The notes under the pieces were generated by a model that did not search any database, was not told the origin of the DNA, and was given only the letters and a program-made list of their open reading frames with translations. Of a stretch of DNA of 64,000 nt, positions 2,710 to 31,783 are shown piece after piece. The first letter of the stretch is position 1; each line of letters opens with the position of its first letter. Both the position numbers and the translations under genes were made by a program. Origin of the DNA: Lentimicrobium sp. (GTDB taxonomy: Bacteria; Bacteroidota; Bacteroidia; Bacteroidales; Lentimicrobiaceae); contig JAHYJC010000010.1 of assembly GCA_019429275.1 (NCBI GenBank), positions 1 to 64,000 of the forward strand. Reading direction: 5' to 3'.

Positions 2710-2740
2710 AGAGGATAGCATTTGCTATCCTCTTGTCATT
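2710..2740 (+). terminator. Hairpin terminator after hydA copy 1
   Basis: A perfect 11-bp inverted repeat, AGAGGATAGCA (2710-2720) and TGCTATCCTCT (2723-2733), lies 18 bp after the hydA stop and is followed by a weak T-rich tract. It probably separates copy-1 hydBA from the sensory operon downstream. The T tract is poor, so efficiency is uncertain. Confidence 0.65.
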
Positions 2741-2800
2741 TATAAAAAACATTAACCATTTAAATATTAGTGCTTTACCCAGATAAAAATGACAAATAAT

Positions 2801-2853
2801 TAGACACTTATCTGTCTATCTGTTATTATAATAACAATGTGAATTTATTCACA
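2801..2853. promoter_or_regulatory. Three adjacent palindromes, candidate Rex or Crp/Fnr-type operators
   Basis: Three perfect inverted repeats lie side by side just upstream of the -33 box. They are TAGACA-N6-TGTCTA (2801-2818), TGTTATTATAATAACA (2821-2836) and TGTGAATTTATTCACA (2838-2853). The third, with flanks (2837-2854), matches the Rex consensus TTGTGAA-N4-TTCACAA at 17 of 18 positions and also the Crp consensus TGTGA-N6-TCACA. The second has the related form TGTTA-N6-TAACA. Rex senses NADH/NAD+, which would fit a hydrogenase operon. Binding is inferred only, and no rex or crp gene lies in this window. Confidence 0.7.
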
Positions 2854-2859
2854 ATTATA

Positions 2860-2891
2860 TTTGTTTATGTTCAAATCAAGTTGTAATTTTG
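2860..2891 (+). promoter_or_regulatory. Bacteroidota-type promoter of the sensory/bifurcating hydrogenase operon
   Basis: TTTG at 2860-2863 and TAATTTTG at 2884-2891 are separated by 20 bp, matching the Bacteroidota -33 TTTG / -7 TAnnTTTG promoter. The expected start is near 2896, about 55 bp before the first gene. The palindrome array abuts its upstream edge. Confidence 0.7.
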
Positions 2892-2952: not shown

Positions 2953-3297
2953 ATGAAAATAAAAGAGGTTGTTAACTTATTAAATGCAAAAATAGTTTCA
3001 GGAGAATACCTTCTTGACACTGAAGCTGAGTTTGTATTTGCTTCTGATTTAATGAGTGATGTACTGACCATTGAGAAAGACAACCTCATGCTTATTACTG
3101 GTTTAGCAAACCTACAGACAATCAGGACTTCAGAAATGTCAGACATCAATAAAATCATTTTTGTCAGAAAGAAAAAAGCAACTGACGAAATGATTCAACT
3201 GGCTGTGGAAAATGATATAATTTTGATTGAATGTGACTACTCCATGTTTAAAACTGCCGGAATTTTGTATCAATCAGGATTAAAGCCTGTATATTAA
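2953..3297 (+). CDS. DRTGG domain protein (first of two)
   Basis: Small cytoplasmic protein of 114 aa with a DRTGG-like fold, a domain also found as a regulatory insert in phosphotransacetylases and in CBS-domain proteins. Its biochemical role is not established. The start chosen (MKIKEVV) aligns with the start of the second DRTGG protein at 5113-5448 (MNVKEVA). An in-frame ATG at 2926 would add nine residues. Shared features of the pair include the VISG/IVSG segment near residue 15, the SDLMSDV/SDLLSDV motif near residue 38 and the I-L-V region near residue 70. It is the first gene of a ten-gene run; 10 bp separate it from the ATPase that follows. A role as a small ligand-binding partner of the sensory hydrogenase is inference from context. 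Confidence 0.75.
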   Translation: MKIKEVVNLLNAKIVSGEYLLDTEAEFVFASDLMSDVLTIEKDNLMLITGLANLQTIRTSEMSDINKIIFVRKKKATDEMIQLAVENDIILIECDYSMFKTAGILYQSGLKPVY

Positions 3298-3307
3298 ACC
3301 TTTGAAG

Positions 3308-3724
3308 ATGCATTTCGAATTTAACATTGAAGGAGGCAATTTTTCGAAAGCCGGAACAGCATCGAGTCAATTGAAGAAAATTCTCAAGCAGCTCAATGTT
3401 GATCCTAAGGTGATTAAGCGTGTAGTTGTGGCTCTTTACGAAGCCGAGGTCAATGTTGTGGCTCATGCCTACACTGGTCAGATTTTTATTGACATTGATA
3501 CTAACAAGATTGAAATCAAACTGGTTGATGAAGGTCCCGGCATTCCAAATATTGAACTTGCAATGCAACAGGGATATTCAACCGCATCACCGGCTGTTCG
3601 TGAAATGGGATTTGGAGCGGGAATGGGGCTTCCGAATATTAAAAACAATACTGATGAGCTTCATGTAGCTTCAGAAGTTGGTAAAGGTACTACGGTTAAG
3701 ATGGCTATTTTTCTGATCAGCTAA
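3308..3724 (+). CDS. RsbW-like ATP-binding protein (GHKL, anti-sigma-type kinase fold)
   Basis: A 138-aa single-domain GHKL ATPase. The N box is recognisable (YEAEVNVVAHAY, near residue 45), followed by the G1 box (VDEGPGIP) and the G2 region (GAGMGLPNIKNN). This layout resembles RsbW/SpoIIAB serine kinases rather than membrane histidine kinases; there is no dimerisation or phospho-acceptor His domain. The ATG at 3308 is preferred over an in-frame TTG at 3302. It sits between a DRTGG gene and the HydS-like hydrogenase with 10-bp gaps on both sides, so it is very likely co-transcribed and may be the signalling output of the sensor. No sigma factor or anti-anti-sigma gene is seen nearby. Confidence 0.8.
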   Translation: MHFEFNIEGGNFSKAGTASSQLKKILKQLNVDPKVIKRVVVALYEAEVNVVAHAYTGQIFIDIDTNKIEIKLVDEGPGIPNIELAMQQGYSTASPAVREMGFGAGMGLPNIKNNTDELHVASEVGKGTTVKMAIFLIS

Positions 3725-3734
3725 TAACACCGAA

Positions 3735-5111
3735 ATGGGCAACACAAATTTTCATCACGCACTAAAAATAAGGGAAGACCTTTGTATAGGTTGTTCTCAT
3801 TGCATGAATGTCTGCCCCACAGAAGCCATAAGAGTTAAAAACGGAAAATCAGTCTTATTTGGAGACCGTTGTGTAGATTGTGGCGAATGTTTCAGGGTTT
3901 GCCCGGTGAGTGCGATAATAATCGATCATGATGACTTCAACAATATTTTTGACTATAAATATCGCGTTGCGCTTGTTCCGGCTGTTTTTACCGGTCAATT
4001 CCCTGTTGACATCTCACTTCGGCAGATTTTTAGCGTTTTGATTGACATTGGGTTCACTCATGTTTATGAAGTTGAAAACGGAGTTGAAATCCTTTTAGAG
4101 GCCATCAATGAAACCTCGACGCCACAGCCTGAAAAAAAGCCACTCATTTCGTCATTTTGTCCTGCAATAGTCAGATTAATACAGGTAAAATTTCCAGCGC
4201 TGGTTGATAACATATTGTTATTAAAGCCGCCGCTTGACATTTCGGCACTTCACATCAGAAAAGAGATGGAAGAAAAAGGGATTCCAGCCGAAGAAACCGG
4301 TATCTTCTATGTAACGCCATGTGCTGCAAAAATTGCTGCAATCAAAGATCCTGTTGGAGAGGCAGCTTCTGCAATTACCGGTGTTATTAACATGGATATC
4401 CTCTTCAATAGGGTTTACAGGCAGGTCAAACAAAAAAACAATCACACCTGTGCATTGCCTTCGGGCAGTAAATTATCCAATGTTGCCATGTGCTGGTCGC
4501 TCACTAATGGAGAAGCACCACATGTAAAAGGAAGGTCGCTGGCAATTGATGAAATTAAAAATGTGATCGAATTTCTGGAAAGACTTGAAAATGATGAATT
4601 CAGCGATATAGATTTTCTTGAGCTAAGGGCTTGTGACGAAAGTTGCGCAGGTGGAGTACTTACCATCAGCAACCGCTTTCTGGCAGCTGAACGGTTGAGA
4701 AACCATGTTGAAAATTTTCAACCCAACCCCGAACTTCAATATCCCGATTCTCTGCGCTCAATTTACCAAAACAGCGAATACCTCCAGGAAAACATATCTA
4801 TTGAAAAAGTTTATCCCCGATCGATTTTGAAACTGGATGATAACATGGCAGAAGCCATGAAAAAAATGGAAAGGGTGAACCGCATTATGCAACTGCTGCC
4901 AATGGTTGACTGCGGTATTTGTGGTGCTCCTAGCTGTCAGGCTCTTGCGCAGGACATAGTACAGGGACTTGGCAACATAAAGCATTGCATCTTCATTCAG
5001 AAAATTTTGGAACAAAAAGGAGAGCTTAATCTTGAAGATAGCGTAAAAATTATGCAGGACATCTGGGGCTATGGGAAAACAAATAAATACAGAGATTTAA
5101 AAGGAATTTGA
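3735..5111 (+). CDS. hydS: HydS-like putative sensory [FeFe]-hydrogenase
   Basis: 458-aa iron-sulfur protein. Two [4Fe-4S] ferredoxin motifs come first (Cys17, 20, 23, 27 and Cys46, 49, 52, 56). A divergent H-cluster domain follows, and then a C-terminal CxxCx4Cx16C motif (Cys393, 396, 401, 418) of the Fe-S type found in corrinoid and RnfB proteins. The H-cluster ligand positions appear kept: Cys142 in L1 (SSFCPAI), Cys196 with Lys199 in L2 (TPCAAK), Cys300 and Cys304 in L3 (CDESC). The neighbouring L1 cysteine used for proton transfer in catalytic enzymes is Phe141, the Glu of L2 is missing, and L3 lacks the usual PGG. Such changes are the hallmark of putative sensory enzymes such as Thermotoga maritima HydS. 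It lacks a PAS domain. It lies among DRTGG, ATPase and PHP genes upstream of hydBAC. The sensory role is inferred from family and context. Confidence 0.82.
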   Translation: MGNTNFHHALKIREDLCIGCSHCMNVCPTEAIRVKNGKSVLFGDRCVDCGECFRVCPVSAIIIDHDDFNNIFDYKYRVALVPAVFTGQFPVDISLRQIFSVLIDIGFTHVYEVENGVEILLEAINETSTPQPEKKPLISSFCPAIVRLIQVKFPALVDNILLLKPPLDISALHIRKEMEEKGIPAEETGIFYVTPCAAKIAAIKDPVGEAASAITGVINMDILFNRVYRQVKQKNNHTCALPSGSKLSNVAMCWSLTNGEAPHVKGRSLAIDEIKNVIEFLERLENDEFSDIDFLELRACDESCAGGVLTISNRFLAAERLRNHVENFQPNPELQYPDSLRSIYQNSEYLQENISIEKVYPRSILKLDDNMAEAMKKMERVNRIMQLLPMVDCGICGAPSCQALAQDIVQGLGNIKHCIFIQKILEQKGELNLEDSVKIMQDIWGYGKTNKYRDLKGI

Positions 5112-5112
5112 A

Positions 5113-5448
5113 ATGAATGTAAAAGAAGTAGCTGAAAAACTTGGCCTAAAAGTTATAAGCGGAGAAAATGGGCTTGACCGTGAGGTCAAAGGCGGGTATG
5201 TTTCAGACCTTTTGAGCGACGTGATGGGAAGTGCCAACGCCGGAGAATTATGGATTACATTGCAAACACACAAAAATGTTATGGCCATTGCTTCACTCAA
5301 AGACCTGGCAGCAATCATTCTGGTAAAGGGATTTGAACCTGATCCTGACATGGAAGAACAAAGCAATGCTGAAGATATTCCTGTTTTGAACTCAGATCTT
5401 GATACTTTTACCATTACCGGCAGATTATTTCAACTTCTAAACCCTTAA
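5113..5448 (+). CDS. DRTGG domain protein (second of two)
   Basis: 111-aa paralogue of the protein at 2953-3297, with the same N-terminal pattern (MNVKEVAEKLG, VISGE) and a SDLLSDVMG motif near residue 33. The start codon lies one base after the stop of the HydS-like gene; an AAAGGAA site within the end of hydS can serve it, so translation is probably coupled. The C-terminal half (VLNSDLDTFTITGRLF) matches the first copy's FKTAGILY region in position. The copies flank the ATPase-HydS pair on both sides, which suggests two different subunits or ligands rather than a spare copy. No enzymatic motif is visible. Confidence 0.78.
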   Translation: MNVKEVAEKLGLKVISGENGLDREVKGGYVSDLLSDVMGSANAGELWITLQTHKNVMAIASLKDLAAIILVKGFEPDPDMEEQSNAEDIPVLNSDLDTFTITGRLFQLLNP

Positions 5449-5461
5449 AGACAAAGCACAC

Positions 5462-6199
5462 ATGAAGGAATATAAAGTCGACCTTCATATTCATACTGTG
5501 CTTTCACCGTGCGGCAGTCTGATGATGAGTCCGCTGAACATTATAAAAGAGGCTTTCAGGAAGAAGATTGACATCATTGGAATTACCGACCACAACTCAA
5601 CACGACAATGCCGCGTTGTAAACGAAGAAGCAAAAAAGGCAGGCATCACAGTTTATGCGGGAGTTGAAGTCACAACAAAAGAAGAAGTACACTGCCTTGC
5701 GTTCTTTGAAACATTTGACATTCTCGATGCATTTCAGATTTATCTTGATTCACATTTGCCTGAAATCATGAACAATACAGAATTATTTGGTTATCAGTTA
5801 GTTGTTGACAAAGATGAAAATATTGTTTGTGAGGAACCAAGATTGTTGATTTCGGCTATTTCTCAGAACATCGATCAGGTTGAGGCAAAGGTTCATAGTT
5901 TGGGAGGAATATTTATACCAGCCCACATCAACAGGGCAAAGTACGGATTAATAAGCCAGCTGGGATTTGTACCTCCTGATTTAAATGCCGACGCCTATGA
6001 ACTTTCAAAGCATATCTCAACCGAAGCGTTTTTGAGCGGGTTCAGTAATTTGAAAGGCAAAACATTTATCAGGAGTTCCGATGCACATCAGCCTGAACTT
6101 ATTGGTGAAAATTTCACACTCTTAAAGATGGAAAACACGGAATTTGATGAATTCAGAAAGGCACTTAAAAGCAGTCAGGGAAGGGAGGCCATTGCATGA
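5462..6199 (+). CDS. PHP-domain metal-dependent phosphoesterase
   Basis: 245-aa cytoplasmic PHP-family hydrolase (TrpH/YciV-like superfamily). Metal-binding motifs are in order: HIH at residues 9-11, ITDHN near residue 40, a Glu in GVEVT near 64, AHINRAKYG near 160 and SSDAHQ near 205. These are the expected ligands of a two- or three-metal site. The family includes 3',5'-nucleoside bisphosphate phosphatases and polymerase-associated PHP domains; the substrate here is unknown. It overlaps the next gene by ATGA (6196-6199), a classic coupling. PHP genes sit beside HydS-like genes in other anaerobes as far as I recall, so a role in a signalling circuit is plausible but unproven. Confidence 0.82.
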   Translation: MKEYKVDLHIHTVLSPCGSLMMSPLNIIKEAFRKKIDIIGITDHNSTRQCRVVNEEAKKAGITVYAGVEVTTKEEVHCLAFFETFDILDAFQIYLDSHLPEIMNNTELFGYQLVVDKDENIVCEEPRLLISAISQNIDQVEAKVHSLGGIFIPAHINRAKYGLISQLGFVPPDLNADAYELSKHISTEAFLSGFSNLKGKTFIRSSDAHQPELIGENFTLLKMENTEFDEFRKALKSSQGREAIA

Positions 6200-6747
6200 T
6201 GAAGGATTTTGCTATGCACCTTATGGATATTGTACAGAATTCTATTTCAGCAGGAGCTGATCTGATTGAGGTACTGATTCGCGAATCTGTAAAAGATGAT
6301 ACTTTGACATTAACCATCATTGACAATGGAAAAGGCATTCCTTCTGATTTGCTTGAAAAGGTTACCGATCCATATATTACAAGCAGAACCACAAGAAAAG
6401 TCGGACTGGGATTGCCACTATTAAAGCAGCATGCCGAATCAACAGGAGGGTATCTTAAAATTCTTTCAACCGAAGGAAACGGGACAAAAGTTATTGGTAA
6501 CTTTGGATTAACTCATTTTGACCGTCAGCCACTTGGAGATATTTCAGGAACCATAGTTTTGCTGGCCGCAGCCAATGTTAAAATAAGATTTGTATACGAA
6601 CATATCACTGATGCGGGAGAATTCAAATTTGACACGAAAGAGGTAAATGAAATGCTAGAAGGAATGTCAATTTCAGAAGCACAGGTAATGAAGTTTCTGA
6701 AAGAGATGATCAATGAAAATTTGAAAGAAATTAAGATTTCAGGATAA
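6196..6747 (+). CDS. GHKL ATP-binding protein (second of two in the operon)
   Basis: 183-aa protein with a compact GHKL ATPase fold. N box MHLMDIVQNSISAGAD near residue 12, G1 box IDNGKGIP near 49 and G2 region KVGLGLPLLKQHAE near 76 are all clear. The HLMDIVQNS start closely resembles the region after the phospho-His in sensor kinases, but no HisKA domain precedes it. A 75-residue C-terminal extension without obvious motif follows the ATPase core, unlike the shorter ATPase at 3308-3724. It overlaps the PHP gene by 4 bp. Function is probably a protein kinase or an ATP-switched binding partner in the hydrogenase sensor system; the substrate cannot be told. Confidence 0.8.
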   Translation: MMKDFAMHLMDIVQNSISAGADLIEVLIRESVKDDTLTLTIIDNGKGIPSDLLEKVTDPYITSRTTRKVGLGLPLLKQHAESTGGYLKILSTEGNGTKVIGNFGLTHFDRQPLGDISGTIVLLAAANVKIRFVYEHITDAGEFKFDTKEVNEMLEGMSISEAQVMKFLKEMINENLKEIKISG

Positions 6748-6781: not shown

Positions 6782-7180
6782 ATGGGACAAGTAAAATCAC
6801 TCGCTGACCTGCGGAAAATCAAAGAAAGCCTGCAGGAAAAGATGAGCCTCAGGGAAAAAAGCAATAATCCCGAGAGCCTTGTGCAAGTAAGAGTAGCTAT
6901 GGCAACCTGCGGCATTGCGTCAGGTGCAAAGCAGGTTATGGATTTCTTTATGGAGGAATTCGACAAAAGAAACATACAGGCAGTTGTTACTCAAACTGGT
7001 TGTATGGGATATTGTTTTGCTGAGCCAACAGTTGAAGTTACCCTTCCTGGTCAGGAACCAATCGTATTTGGTTATGTAGATTCAAAAAAAGCCGATGACA
7101 TCATTGAAAAGTATGTTAAAAACGGAGAACTGGTTGACGGCATCATTCCCGTAAATTACCAAACTATTGAAAAGAAATAA
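6782..7180 (+). CDS. Thioredoxin-fold [2Fe-2S] ferredoxin-like protein
   Basis: 132-aa protein resembling the C-terminal domain of NuoE and the N-terminal domain of HydB. It has a charged helix first (residues 1-30), then ATCGIASGAK (Cys43) and TGCMGYCFAEP (Cys74, Cys78). HydB2 in the next gene has four cysteines in the matching places (Cys11, 16, 48, 52). Here the second is replaced (Gly48), so only three cysteines are visible. It could bind an atypical cluster or use another ligand. It comes 12 bp before hydB copy 2 and is probably an electron carrier or subunit joining the sensor genes and the bifurcating hydrogenase. Similar small proteins are commonly annotated as (2Fe-2S) ferredoxin or NADH dehydrogenase-like subunits. 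Confidence 0.8.
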   Translation: MGQVKSLADLRKIKESLQEKMSLREKSNNPESLVQVRVAMATCGIASGAKQVMDFFMEEFDKRNIQAVVTQTGCMGYCFAEPTVEVTLPGQEPIVFGYVDSKKADDIIEKYVKNGELVDGIIPVNYQTIEKK

Positions 7181-7192
7181 GGAGGAAAGGTA

Positions 7193-8986
7193 ATGTCAAA
7201 ATATAAAATGCATGTTTTGGTTTGTGGCGGAACTGGTTGTCATGCTTCAGAGAGCGACCGGCTTCTGGACAATTTTAAAAACATAGTGGTCGATAAAGGC
7301 CTTGATAATGATGTACAGGTAATTGCAACTGGCTGTTTCGGCTTTTGTGAAAAAGGGCCTATTGTGAAAATAATGCCTGACAACACATTTTACACAGGAG
7401 TAACGCCTGACGATGCCCTTGATATTATAGACGAACATATCATTAAAGGGCGTAAGGTCAATCGATTGCTCTATGTCAATCCTGAAAATAAAGAAATCAT
7501 TTCTGATTCCAAGCACATGGGATTCTACAAAAAACAAATCAGGATTGCTTTACGCAACTGTGGTTTTATTGATCCCGAAAACATTGATGAATATATCTCG
7601 CGCGATGGCTATGAAGCCCTGGCAAAATGCCTCACCGAAATGACACCTCAACAGGTCATTGAGGAGATGAAAAAATCAGGACTTCGCGGTCGTGGAGGCG
7701 GAGGGTTTCCAACCGGACTGAAGTGGGAAATCACAAGCAAATCGGAATCGGATGTTAAATATGTAGTTTGTAATGCCGACGAAGGAGATCCCGGAGCATT
7801 TATGGATCGGTCAATTCTTGAAGGTGATCCACATTCAGTAATTGAAGCTATGGCCATTTGCGGATATTGCATAGGTGGATATAATGGATTGGTTTACATA
7901 CGGGCAGAATATCCCCTTGCTATCGAACGCCTGAAAACAGCAATTGGTCAGGCCAGAGAATATGGACTTCTGGGCAATGACATATTGGGCACAGGCTTTA
8001 AATTTGATATAGAATTAAGGTATGGAGCCGGTGCATTTGTTTGCGGCGAAGAAACCGCACTCATTCATTCAATGGAAGGCTTAAGAGGAGAACCTACTGT
8101 TAAACCTCCTTTCCCATCTGTATCAGGATATTACGGGAAACCTACCAATGTCAATAATGTTGAAACTTTTGCCAATGTTCCAATCATCATCACAAAGGGA
8201 GCCGATTGGTTTGCAAGCATTGGTACTGAAAAATCAAAAGGGACAAAGGTTTTTGCACTTGCCGGCAAGATAAATAATGTCGGACTTATTGAAGTTCCAA
8301 TGGGTACAACCCTTCGTGAAGTTATTTATGAAATCGGGGGTGGAATTAAGGATGGCAAGAAATTTAAAGCCGTTCAAACCGGTGGTCCTTCAGGAGGATG
8401 TCTCACAGAAAAACATCTGGATTCGCCCATTGACTTTGACAACCTGATTGCAGCCGGATCAATGATGGGTTCCGGAGGTATGATTGTCATGGATGAAGAT
8501 GATTGTATGGTTTCTATTGCCAAATTTTACCTGGACTTCACAGTTGAAGAATCATGCGGAAAATGCTCTCCATGCAGCATAGGTAATAAGCGTTTGTATG
8601 AAATTCTGGATAAGATAACCCAGGGAAAAGGTACACGCGATGACATTGACAGCCTTCGAAACCTGGGTAGTGTAATTAAAGATACGGCACTTTGTGGTTT
8701 GGGTCAAACTTCACCCAATCCTGTTCTTTCTACCATTGACAATTTCTGGAATGAATACATTGAACATGTAAAGGATAAAAAATGCCGTTCCGGTCAATGT
8801 AAAGCATTATTGCAATATGTGATTGAGCCCGAGAATTGTGTCGGCTGTACTGCCTGTGCGCGGAACTGCCCGGTAAATGCCATTGCTGGCGAGCGTAAGG
8901 GAATTCATGTTATCGATCAGACAACCTGTATTAAATGCGGGGCATGTCTTGATAAGTGCAAATTCAATGCTGTGTTTATTAAATAA
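7193..8986 (+). CDS. hydB: Bifurcating hydrogenase flavoprotein subunit HydB, copy 2
   Basis: 597-aa NAD(H)- and FMN-binding subunit of HydABC, the cytoplasmic complex that couples NADH and reduced ferredoxin oxidation to H2 formation, or the reverse. Domains: N-terminal thioredoxin-fold [2Fe-2S] (Cys11, 16, 48, 52); the Nqo1/NuoF core with GRGGGGFPTGLKW and NADEGDPGAF; SLBB region; NADH_4Fe-4S motif ESCGKCSPC with CGLGQ; and a C-terminal 2x[4Fe-4S] ferredoxin (ENCVGCTACARNCP and TCIKCGACLDKC). This extra C-terminal domain is typical of bifurcating HydB and absent from respiratory NuoF. A strong GGAGGAAAGG site precedes the ATG, unusual in this window. It is followed by hydA (14 bp) and hydC. 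Confidence 0.95.
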   Translation: MSKYKMHVLVCGGTGCHASESDRLLDNFKNIVVDKGLDNDVQVIATGCFGFCEKGPIVKIMPDNTFYTGVTPDDALDIIDEHIIKGRKVNRLLYVNPENKEIISDSKHMGFYKKQIRIALRNCGFIDPENIDEYISRDGYEALAKCLTEMTPQQVIEEMKKSGLRGRGGGGFPTGLKWEITSKSESDVKYVVCNADEGDPGAFMDRSILEGDPHSVIEAMAICGYCIGGYNGLVYIRAEYPLAIERLKTAIGQAREYGLLGNDILGTGFKFDIELRYGAGAFVCGEETALIHSMEGLRGEPTVKPPFPSVSGYYGKPTNVNNVETFANVPIIITKGADWFASIGTEKSKGTKVFALAGKINNVGLIEVPMGTTLREVIYEIGGGIKDGKKFKAVQTGGPSGGCLTEKHLDSPIDFDNLIAAGSMMGSGGMIVMDEDDCMVSIAKFYLDFTVEESCGKCSPCSIGNKRLYEILDKITQGKGTRDDIDSLRNLGSVIKDTALCGLGQTSPNPVLSTIDNFWNEYIEHVKDKKCRSGQCKALLQYVIEPENCVGCTACARNCPVNAIAGERKGIHVIDQTTCIKCGACLDKCKFNAVFIK

Positions 8987-9000
8987 TACCCGGAACAAAA

Positions 9001-10770
9001 ATGGAAACAATCAAATTAACCATAGATAATAAAGTGATTGAGGTTGCTAAAGGGACATCGATCCTGAAAGCTGCAAAAGAGGCTGAAATACACATTCCTA
9101 CTTTGTGCTACCTGAATCTTCACGATCTGAATATCGAAAATAAACCTGCAGGATGTCGCGTATGCGTTGTTGAAGTTGAAGGCCGCAAAAATCTTGCCCC
9201 TGCCTGCGTTACTGAATGCCTGGAAAGCATGGTCATCAACACACACAATATCAGGGTATTGAATGCACGTAAAACTGTGCTGGAGTTAATTCTCTCTGAC
9301 CACCCGACCGACTGTCTGATATGCGCCAAAAATGGCAATTGCGAATTACAGTCTATGGCACAGGAATTCGGCATCAGAAAGTTACATTATGAAGGTGAGC
9401 AATCTACCTATCGCGAAGATACATCTCCGGCAATTATAAGAGATGTAGATAAATGTATCATGTGCCGGCGTTGCGAGCTGATGTGTAATGATGTTCAGAC
9501 AGTTGGTGTCCTTTCGGCTGTGAACAGGGGTTTTATGTCGGTGGTAGCACCCGCTTTTGAAAGAAACCTCGACCATAGCGAATGTACCTATTGCGGACAG
9601 TGTGTTGCTGTTTGCCCGACAGGTGCACTCACCGAAGTGGATCATACCAATGCTGTAGTGCGTGCCCTGGCCGACCCGACTAAAACGGTTGTTGTGCAAA
9701 CTGCACCTGCTGTGCGGGCTGCTCTTGGCGAAGAATTTGGCCTTGAGCCCGGCACATTGGTTACGGGAAAACTGGCCGCTGCACTCCGCCGTCTGGGATT
9801 TAACTATGTGTTTGACACCGATTTTGCTGCCGATCTTACCATAATGGAAGAAGGCACCGAACTTCTTGACAGACTCACCCGTCATTTAAATGGCGACAAG
9901 AACGTCCCCTTACCAATACTTACTTCGTGTTGCCCGGGATGGGTAAATTTCTTTGAACACCAGTTTCCTGAGATGATGGATATTCCTTCAACCGCCAGAA
10001 GTCCGCAGCAAATGTTTGGCGCTATTGCCAAAACATATTTTGCCGAAAAAATTGGCATTGAACGCGAAAACATGGTTGTAGTTTCAATCATGCCATGTCT
10101 GGCTAAAAAGTTTGAGTGTCAGCGTGAAGAATTTTCAACACATGGGAATCCTGATGTTGACTTTTCAATCTCAACCCGCGAATTGGCGCACCTAATCAAG
10201 CAATCAAACATCAACTTTAATACCCTTGCCGATGAGGATTTCGACAACCCATTGGGTGAATCGACCGGAGCCGCTGTTATTTTCGGAACAACCGGTGGAG
10301 TAATCGAAGCCGCAGTGCGCACAGCCTATGAAGTCCAGACAGGAAAAAAACTTCAGAAAGTAGATTTCGAAGAGTTGAGGGGAATGGAATACATAAGGGA
10401 AGCAACCATAGATTTTGACGGACTGCCCATAAAAATAGGTATTGCTCACGGATTGGGAAATGCCCGAAAATTGCTTCAGGATATAAAAGATGGAAAGTCA
10501 GAATTTCATGCCATTGAAATTATGGCTTGTCCGGGTGGTTGTATTGGTGGAGGTGGTCAACCTCTCCATCTGGGAGATTCTTCAATAATTAAAGCACGGC
10601 AAAAAGCCATTTACCGTGAAGATGCCGGAAAAACCATTCGTAAATCGCATGAGAATCCCTATATTGTAAAATTGTATGAGGAATTTCTTGGAAAACCGCT
10701 GAGTGAAAAATCTCATCATCTGCTCCACACCCATTATTTTGATAAAAGCAATGAGACTTTTATCGAGTAG
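9001..10770 (+). CDS. hydA: [FeFe]-hydrogenase catalytic subunit HydA, copy 2
   Basis: 589-aa catalytic subunit with the same domain plan as copy 1. [2Fe-2S] cysteines are at 36, 52, 55 and 69. The His101-containing cluster site HPTDCLICAKNGNC is followed by two [4Fe-4S] motifs (Cys152-162, Cys195-205). The H-cluster domain has canonical L1 TSCCPGW (308-314), L2 MPCLAKKFE and L3 MACPGGCIGGGGQP. All residues expected for activity are visible. The tail SHHLLHTHY matches copy 1. Together with HydB and HydC it makes a complete electron-bifurcating hydrogenase. The two HydA copies are clearly homologous along their whole length but diverged throughout, so this is not a recent duplication. Confidence 0.96.
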   Translation: METIKLTIDNKVIEVAKGTSILKAAKEAEIHIPTLCYLNLHDLNIENKPAGCRVCVVEVEGRKNLAPACVTECLESMVINTHNIRVLNARKTVLELILSDHPTDCLICAKNGNCELQSMAQEFGIRKLHYEGEQSTYREDTSPAIIRDVDKCIMCRRCELMCNDVQTVGVLSAVNRGFMSVVAPAFERNLDHSECTYCGQCVAVCPTGALTEVDHTNAVVRALADPTKTVVVQTAPAVRAALGEEFGLEPGTLVTGKLAAALRRLGFNYVFDTDFAADLTIMEEGTELLDRLTRHLNGDKNVPLPILTSCCPGWVNFFEHQFPEMMDIPSTARSPQQMFGAIAKTYFAEKIGIERENMVVVSIMPCLAKKFECQREEFSTHGNPDVDFSISTRELAHLIKQSNINFNTLADEDFDNPLGESTGAAVIFGTTGGVIEAAVRTAYEVQTGKKLQKVDFEELRGMEYIREATIDFDGLPIKIGIAHGLGNARKLLQDIKDGKSEFHAIEIMACPGGCIGGGGQPLHLGDSSIIKARQKAIYREDAGKTIRKSHENPYIVKLYEEFLGKPLSEKSHHLLHTHYFDKSNETFIE

Positions 10771-10820: not shown

Positions 10821-11300
10821 ATGGCAACTATAAAATTATCAGCAAACAAGATTGATGAGTTAAAAGCAGTTTGCAAATCGTTCAACAATGAAAAAGGAGA
10901 GTTAATCAATGTACTTCACAAGGCGCAAGGCATTTTCGGATATCTCCCGGCAGAAGTACAGGAGGTGATAGCCAAAGAACTCAGTATCTCGGTGGCCCAT
11001 GTGTATGGGGTTGTATCGTTTTATTCGTTCTTTACAATGCTTCCGAAAGGTGAACATCCGGTTTCCATTTGCCTGGGAACAGCATGTTACGTTCGTGGTG
11101 CAGAAAAGGTAATAGACGAGTTTAAACGCCTGCTCAAAATCAATGTAGGAGAAACCACTCCCGATGGAAAATTTTCGCTGGCTTGCCTCAGGTGCGTTGG
11201 TGCCTGCGGACTTGCTCCTGTTGTGCTGGTGGGTGAAAAAGTTTTTGGACGCGTTGCTCCTGAAGGCGTTAAGGACATTATTGGAGAATACACAAAATAA
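10821..11300 (+). CDS. hydC: Bifurcating hydrogenase [2Fe-2S] subunit HydC (NuoE-like)
   Basis: 159-aa NuoE/HydC subunit with the usual N-terminal helical bundle and C-terminal thioredoxin-fold [2Fe-2S] domain. Ligands are Cys84 and Cys89 (CLGTAC) and Cys125 and Cys129 (CVGAC). Length is typical. It is the last gene of the operon, 50 bp after hydA, and is followed by a strong terminator. Gene order B-A-C differs from the common C-B-A order. Confidence 0.94.
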   Translation: MATIKLSANKIDELKAVCKSFNNEKGELINVLHKAQGIFGYLPAEVQEVIAKELSISVAHVYGVVSFYSFFTMLPKGEHPVSICLGTACYVRGAEKVIDEFKRLLKINVGETTPDGKFSLACLRCVGACGLAPVVLVGEKVFGRVAPEGVKDIIGEYTK

Positions 11301-31682: not shown

Positions 31683-31783
31683 ACTGAATTTTCACAGTTA
31701 CTGTTAATTTTTTAAATTCAATCAATTGTATATCAATTATATAAGTAAAAATATCAGATATAAGAGAATAATTTTTCAAAAAA

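Follow-up and report, generated by a model that had tools for sequence, protein, structure and literature searches.

The window, that is the whole stretch of 64,000 nucleotides of Lentimicrobium sp. DNA analysed here, carries an operon for an NADH-dependent [FeFe] hydrogenase. It opens inside a NuoF-like gene (positions 1-809, the start of contig C101); contig C49 (L015) ends within a NuoE-NuoF pair, and C49 and C101 may adjoin. Three palindromes lie between the terminator of a preceding HydA gene, where one terminator was found against 0.3 expected, and the next operon, whose first start codon is at 2953. The features, all on the + strand, are the following.

2710..2733, +: intrinsic terminator behind the preceding HydA gene (10 counted stem pairs, T-rich tail; perfect 11-bp arms)
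2799..2819, +: slot of element U, holding palindrome 1 (alignment of close promoters, TTAGA counts)
2820..2837, +: palindrome 2, predicted distal Rex site, core TGTTATTATAATAACA at 2821-2836 (perfect 16-bp palindrome, conservation, recurrence)
2837..2854, +: palindrome 3, predicted proximal Rex site, core TGTGAATTTATTCACA at 2838-2853 (conservation, recurrence)
2860..2863, +: -33 box TTTG (sequence; TTG near this place in most rows of an 11-promoter alignment)
2884..2891, +: -7 box TAATTTTG (TAnnTTTG in 11 of 11 aligned promoters)
2953..3297, +: first operon gene, DRTGG-domain protein (PF07085, E 3.7e-5, 24 bits, just under the cut-off of 25.2)
3302..3724, +: HATPase (anti-sigma/RsbW-like) protein (PF13581)
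3735..5111, +: ferredoxin / [FeFe]-hydrogenase-like domain protein (PF02906, PF00037)
5113..5448, +: second DRTGG protein (PF07085)
5462..6199, +: PHP-domain protein (PF02811)
6196..6747, +: HATPase protein (histidine-kinase-type ATPase matches, under curated cut-offs)
6782..7180, +: conserved 132-aa protein of hydrogenase operons, without Pfam match (51-69 % identity to tandem-adjacent first genes of five other genomes)
7193..8986, +: HydB / NuoF-like subunit (TIGR01959, 489.2 bits, under the cut-off of 558.65)
9001..10770, +: HydA, NADH-dependent [FeFe] hydrogenase group A6 (NF040763, 907.8 bits, cut-off 765)
10821..11300, +: HydC / NuoE-like subunit (NF005747, 165.1 bits, and TIGR01958, 117.5 bits, both under cut-off)

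Housekeeping promoters of Bacteroidota consist of a -33 box TTTG and a -7 box TAnnTTTG, and both are present at 2860-2863 and 2884-2891. Transcription would then start near 2895, which would place the centres of palindromes 3 and 2 near -50 and -67.

Two fused dyads upstream of the hydrogenase promoter

An earlier note on this DNA had described three inverted repeats spaced 19 and 17 bp apart, the last ending 6 bp before the -33 box. On re-reading the sequence, all three are present at these places (centres 2809.5, 2828.5 and 2845.5) and palindrome 3 indeed ends 6 bp before the TTTG. Palindrome 1 reads TAGACA-CTTATC-TGTCTA (2801-2818) with perfect 6-bp arms. The core of palindrome 2 follows TGTTA-N6-TAACA, with C as its outer left base, and palindrome 3 has arms of 7 bp around a non-complementary TT. 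The fits claimed for palindrome 3 hold as well: its flanked form ATGTGAATTTATTCACAA agrees with TTGTGAA-N4-TTCACAA at 13 of the 14 specified positions (17 of 18 counting the four N), and it matches the Crp consensus TGTGA-N6-TCACA fully. A Rex dyad, in the form TTGTGAA-N4-TTCACAA or TTGTTA-N6-TAACAA, is recognizable in both the distal and the proximal site.

Palindromes 2 and 3 are one unit of two TGTKA-N6-TMACA sites. The two 18-bp sites have one base pair in common and lie 17 bp apart centre to centre, with no space between them. When the 219-bp intergenic region was shuffled 20,000 times with its dinucleotides kept, this tandem never arose, and a single TGTKA-N6-TMACA site arose in 107 of the shuffles.

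Recurrence of the tandem in the genome and the order

Single sites are not enriched in the genome, which is a point against a Rex reading: TGTKA-N6-TMACA occurs 20 times versus 25 in the control, and TGTTA-N6-TAACA 6 times versus 16. The stricter TGTGAA-N4-TTCACA with at most one mismatch gives 16 matches versus 2, most of them counted without inspection. Six of the 20 TGTKA-N6-TMACA sites form three pairs, all at exactly 17 bp: the one in the window, one on contig C6 (23800-23832) and one on contig C70 (36440-36472), the latter upstream of gdhA (glutamate dehydrogenase). The C6 tandem stands upstream of a cluster of NuoE, NuoF, HydA, hydrogenase-kinase, response-regulator, kinase and rex genes, with more genes past rex. 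The rex gene lies at 31688, about 7.9 kb downstream of the tandem; the intervening genes are all on one strand and presumably co-transcribed from the tandem through rex. A site upstream of the rex operon, the arrangement looked for as a sign of autoregulation, is thus present in this genome, and the same arrangement is found in 13 others.

Within the C6 cluster, between HydA and the response regulator and rex, the product of one gene (L027:14103-16124) joins [FeFe] hydrogenase, HisKA and HATPase domains; this putative H2-sensing kinase shares its cluster with rex. Another NuoE-NuoF pair is preceded by a mixed single site, TGTTA...TCACA at C49:7579, which is followed at once by a -7 box and accompanied by a degenerate second site. 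The single site at C18:1766, upstream of a predicted NAD-dependent epimerase/dehydratase-family gene, is taken as a lead only. Two perfect single sites inside open reading frames (C6:54492 and C44:41132) were put down to chance.

Conservation was followed in the orthologous promoters of 62 named related loci, or 59 after leaving out L074, L091 and L093, whose upstream sequence is unusable. Of the 59, 19 have the exact tandem ahead of the DRTGG gene, not counting the tandem of L124 with its one mismatch. The exact form is present in 17 of the 18 loci with at least 58 % identity, the exception being L118. Remoter orthologues vary: in L087 and L090 the two sites are 23 bp apart, and others have one site or none. 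Prolixibacteraceae orthologues lack the tandem upstream, which speaks against its being a Rex operator. In an alignment of 11 close promoters (the window and 10 relatives), the half-sites of the tandem and the -7 box TAnnTTTG are conserved and the remainder drifts. The earlier note had staked its reading on a rex or crp homologue and on conservation of the palindromes in relatives; rex is present and palindromes 2 and 3 are kept. At five loci (L082, L083, L084, L118, L122) the DRTGG gene is preceded by two Rex-like sites, the distal one with one mismatch; the distance between them is exactly 131 bp each time, possibly a looping arrangement or two promoters.

Across the order, a pair with a gap of 0-30 occurs in 61 of 247 genomes, with 130 forward matches versus 7 for the reversed pattern. 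Gaps and distances to rex were counted on 75 listed pairs from 37 of these 61 genomes. Among the 75, the gap is 1 (17 bp centre to centre) in 56, 5 (21 bp, two turns) in three, 4 in two, 6 in one and 22 in one; the other 12 have gaps of 26-30, several with a -7 box between both sites. At ten loci (L064-L069, L071, L073 near position 270-360, L131 and L142), Rex-site pairs have gaps of 25-28 (41-44 bp centre to centre), and in nine of the ten a -7 box lies between the sites. Outside the order, the 17-bp pair was found in none of 293 genomes sampled. The phylum sample comprised 296 genomes (these 293, our own and two of the same order), only our own matched, and it is uninformative on anaerobes as such. 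A chance origin of the tandem was rejected on this absence together with the shuffles.

The nearer gene was determined at 30 fetched pairs by choosing by eye between the two flanking genes (at L128 the gene counted is 437 bp distant). It is of hydrogenase-operon type in 23 cases, glutamate dehydrogenase in four, NDH-2 in one and another gene in two, so that 28 of the 30 candidate targets are NADH-linked. At the 22 fetched pairs with 17-bp spacing, there are 18 of hydrogenase-operon type and four glutamate dehydrogenases. A NuoE-like first gene alone sufficed for a hydrogenase-type call, and the 23 calls rest on Pfam in 17 cases (two DRTGG matches being below cut-off) and on BLASTP identity of 51-69 % to window operon genes in six.

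The presence of the pair follows that of rex. A rex gene (PF06971) was detected in 154 of the 247 genomes: 60 of the 61 with a pair of any gap versus 94 of the 186 others (Fisher P 1e-13, uncorrected for relatedness). Two observations count against the Rex reading, namely the sole pair genome without a rex match (G136, 92 % complete) and the 94 rex-bearing genomes without a perfect pair. In 14 of the 32 genomes with a listed 17-bp pair, such a pair and rex share a contig, 7.5-8.3 kb apart and in the right orientation; in L145, rex adjoins the pair and points away from the DRTGG gene.

Candidate binders of the three palindromes

The rex gene sought in the genome was found (NF003995, 195 bits, cut-off 126), and its product matches PDB Rex chains with E values of 3e-38 to 4e-24. 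The protein has the winged helix, R48 of the Arg48/Lys49 recognition pair (K49 being R) and the NAD-binding motif GxGxxG (as GIGNLG), with wing residues R60 and G61 changed. The accessible text on T. maritima Rex lists 12 DNA contacts (PMC8836258). When these positions are counted by hand on an alignment of the two proteins, six are identical (R12, S33, Q46, R48, G58, Y64) and K49 is conservatively replaced by R. The remaining five are changed (E34H, K43T, S52M, R60L, G61R), a point against the Rex reading. The recognition stretch VQVRRD is shared by our Rex and all 20 Rex proteins sampled from pair genomes. In a sample of 28 from pair-less genomes, 17 are of the [ST]Q[IV]xKD[LF] type and 11 resemble our own (one with EQVRRD); both samples were hand-picked rather than random, and eight of the 28 are best-scoring loci. 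These 11 are a further point against the Rex reading. The tie between pair and Rex type is not strict: L145 belongs to a pair genome that was not in the sample, and its Rex has LVRKDF at this stretch and fits neither type. The order has at least two Rex types, VQVRRD and [ST]Q[IV]xKD, as read from L195-L234, L156-L163 and L145.

Motif identity, the co-occurrence of pair and rex, and the placement of a tandem upstream of the rex cluster make the assignment to Rex very likely, and both sites are probably Rex sites. A competitor for the same DNA is an activator of the CRP/FNR family on one or both palindromes, through TGTGA-N6-TCACA. Palindrome 3 fits the CRP consensus fully, the predicted site centres fall in activator territory, and the search for crp/fnr genes suggested by the earlier note turned up three CRP/FNR-like proteins. 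A CRP site would have a conserved G at half-site position 4, however, and this position is T in 143 and G in 45 of 188 half-sites, a mixture expected of Rex and not of CRP. A CRP-type recognition helix reads RETxxR, and the three proteins have ETLSR, ESAIR and ESTVK instead; a fourth PF00027 match, in a 628-aa frame on C34, was outside this comparison. An FNR site, TTGAT-N4-ATCAA, does not occur within 2801-2853, and the pair genomes track rex (60/61). The Crp alternative, suggested by the fit that the earlier note pointed out, is therefore weak, and we regard a CRP/FNR activator at these palindromes as very improbable.

Palindrome 1 raises a separate question. It abuts palindrome 2 and, as with the other two, its sequence can be set out as 5-6-5, as would suit a single array of one regulator over all three. 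Against this, it has no half-site in common with the others, its spacing is 19 and not 17 bp, and its symmetry was not seen by eye in the 10 aligned relatives. When the 87 bp preceding the tandem were shuffled 2,000 times, at least one inverted repeat with 6-bp arms appeared in 28 % (spacer 0-6) to 40 % (spacer 0-10), i.e., such a repeat is at chance level. A single array is hardly credible. The exact form of palindrome 1 occurs only this once in the genome, and at up to two mismatches there are 51 matches versus 215 for the reversed control; it was accordingly discarded as a repeated genome motif.

In relatives, the place of palindrome 1 is taken by an element U, TTTAGA-N5-TMTAAAT, of which the window keeps only the left half in the conserved register (TTAGA, 2800-2804). 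Of 29 promoters of the window layout, 15 have TTAGA at 19-22 bp before the tandem, versus 0.27 expected. In the order, 15 of 247 genomes (control 0) show U immediately preceding a Rex-type site. A full U-plus-Rex match was not found in our own genome and its three same-genus genomes. U by itself gives 26 and 38 matches in our own genome versus 19 and 23 in the control. Among 12 exact U places examined, six are upstream of genes of anaerobic-metabolism type, named by eye from sequence (two NuoE, a molybdopterin-type oxidoreductase, a metal ATPase, a glycyl-radical-like enzyme and an RnfB-like protein); no such gene link was seen at the other six. U also stands next to Rex sites at hydrogenase promoters in the L064-L147 promoters and L238-L252, and a U-like site at C70:36578-36596 precedes the Rex tandem of gdhA by about 105 bp. 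Palindrome 1 is thus a chance-level repeat that overlies part of a conserved, different element and is outside the operator. The earlier suggestion that several regulators bind the array survives in part: palindrome 1 is not conserved as a palindrome, but its left arm TTAGA sits in the register of a conserved non-Rex element, where another regulator may bind.

Proposed repression by a tandem Rex operator

Rex control of the hydrogenase operon, as the earlier note proposed, gains support from the recurrence of the tandem and its co-occurrence with rex, with the correction that the operator comprises palindromes 2 and 3 and not the third alone. We propose that these two form a tandem Rex operator repressing the NADH-dependent [FeFe] hydrogenase operon and relieved by NADH, a reading to which we give a probability of about 0.87. 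The computation gives the sites, their spacing and conservation, the recurrence ahead of the rex cluster and other NADH-linked genes, and the co-occurrence with rex; Rex binding, its cooperativity and the sign of regulation are what we infer. Two adjacent Rex dimers, their centres 17 bp apart, would occupy the DNA just ahead of the -33 box. With NAD+ in excess, Rex on both sites would hold transcription down, probably because it covers the alpha-CTD region and crowds the -33 box. A rise in NADH would release Rex, the hydrogenase would be made, and electrons from NADH would leave as H2. A distance of 17 bp is about 1.6 helical turns (about 220 degrees), which would place the dimers almost opposite each other around the helix, so that they could abut. 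The fixed spacing suggests that they cooperate.

The tandem lies ahead of the -33 box and not over the promoter, in a position that activators occupy too, which is a point against a repressor. The layout in the window is compatible with repression by crowding the -33/alpha-CTD region and also with activation or anti-activation. Rex could bind here and contact RNA polymerase, or shut out a protein bound at U. The distance between tandem and TAnnTTTG, 29-31 nt as in the window in 28 of 48 tandems, would suit this alternative, as would the frequent presence of U just upstream. Yet the 48 tandems contain groups of close relatives, 10 coming from one such group, and the fixed distance may in part reflect common descent; the lack of a full U-plus-Rex match in our own and the same-genus genomes also weighs against this alternative. 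Moreover, elsewhere the pair takes a repressor position. In four of five gdhA promoters and one nuoE promoter, the -7 box is directly before the tandem and the operator thus falls over the start (L077 has this arrangement as well as the window layout), and other pairs are split around the -7 box. Published accounts of Rex, as far as their accessible text goes, describe repression. Activation or anti-activation by Rex is therefore rather unlikely, and repression from the tandem is the reading retained here.

The accessible text of earlier studies provides several points of comparison. Rex is described as a repressor at low NADH/NAD+, with the generalized consensus (ROP) TTGTGAANNNNTTCACAA (PMC5317091, PMC6391272). 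The TTGTTA/TAACAA form corresponds to the published motif ATTGTTANNNNNNTAACAAT of T. ethanolicus (PMC5886521), and position 4 of the sites in the window is T or G, which also holds for Thermoanaerobacter. With the ROP the window shares the dyad, NADH-linked targets and a rex gene in a cluster headed by the same tandem. It differs in having two sites in a fixed 17-bp register, changed Rex wing residues and a Bacteroidota -33/-7 promoter downstream. In Caldicellulosiruptor, [FeFe] hydrogenase genes are under Rex and rex autoregulation is reported (PMC6391272), and Caldithrix has a candidate Rex site upstream of such genes (PMC6391272, PMC5317091). The likeness lies in Rex sites ahead of [FeFe] hydrogenase genes; these are, however, other phyla, and the accessible text describes no tandem there. 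Two Rex sites upstream of a single gene are also known, from S. aureus ldh1, where they give two shifted bands and can be removed singly by truncation (PMC3544828), and from T. saccharolyticum adhE, with predicted sites at -150 and -31 (PMC5886521). In contrast to the window, neither is described in the accessible text as a fused 17-bp tandem. The open-licence literature, as far as its accessible text goes, yielded no tandem Rex operator at fixed 17-bp spacing and no Rex operator work in Bacteroidales. On this basis the fixed-register double operator appears to be new, Rex operators and two-site promoters as such being already known.

A wider and more tentative picture, which we consider doubtful as a whole, is that many Bacteroidales, mostly with a VQVRRD Rex, evolved this double operator, on which two dimers would bind cooperatively from nearly opposite sides and give a steeper NADH switch than single sites do. 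At hydrogenase promoters it would be fused to U, with Rex gating activation, and the hydrogenase/histidine-kinase fusion would join the sensing of H2 and NADH in one loop. As far as the literature search shows, the control of genes for hydrogen production and NADH balance in anaerobic Bacteroidales has been little studied. Whether the exact 17-bp spacing makes Rex dimers cooperate and sharpens the response to NADH has now become a testable question. With its conservation, the double operator marks Rex as the likely switch and yields a list of candidate target genes.
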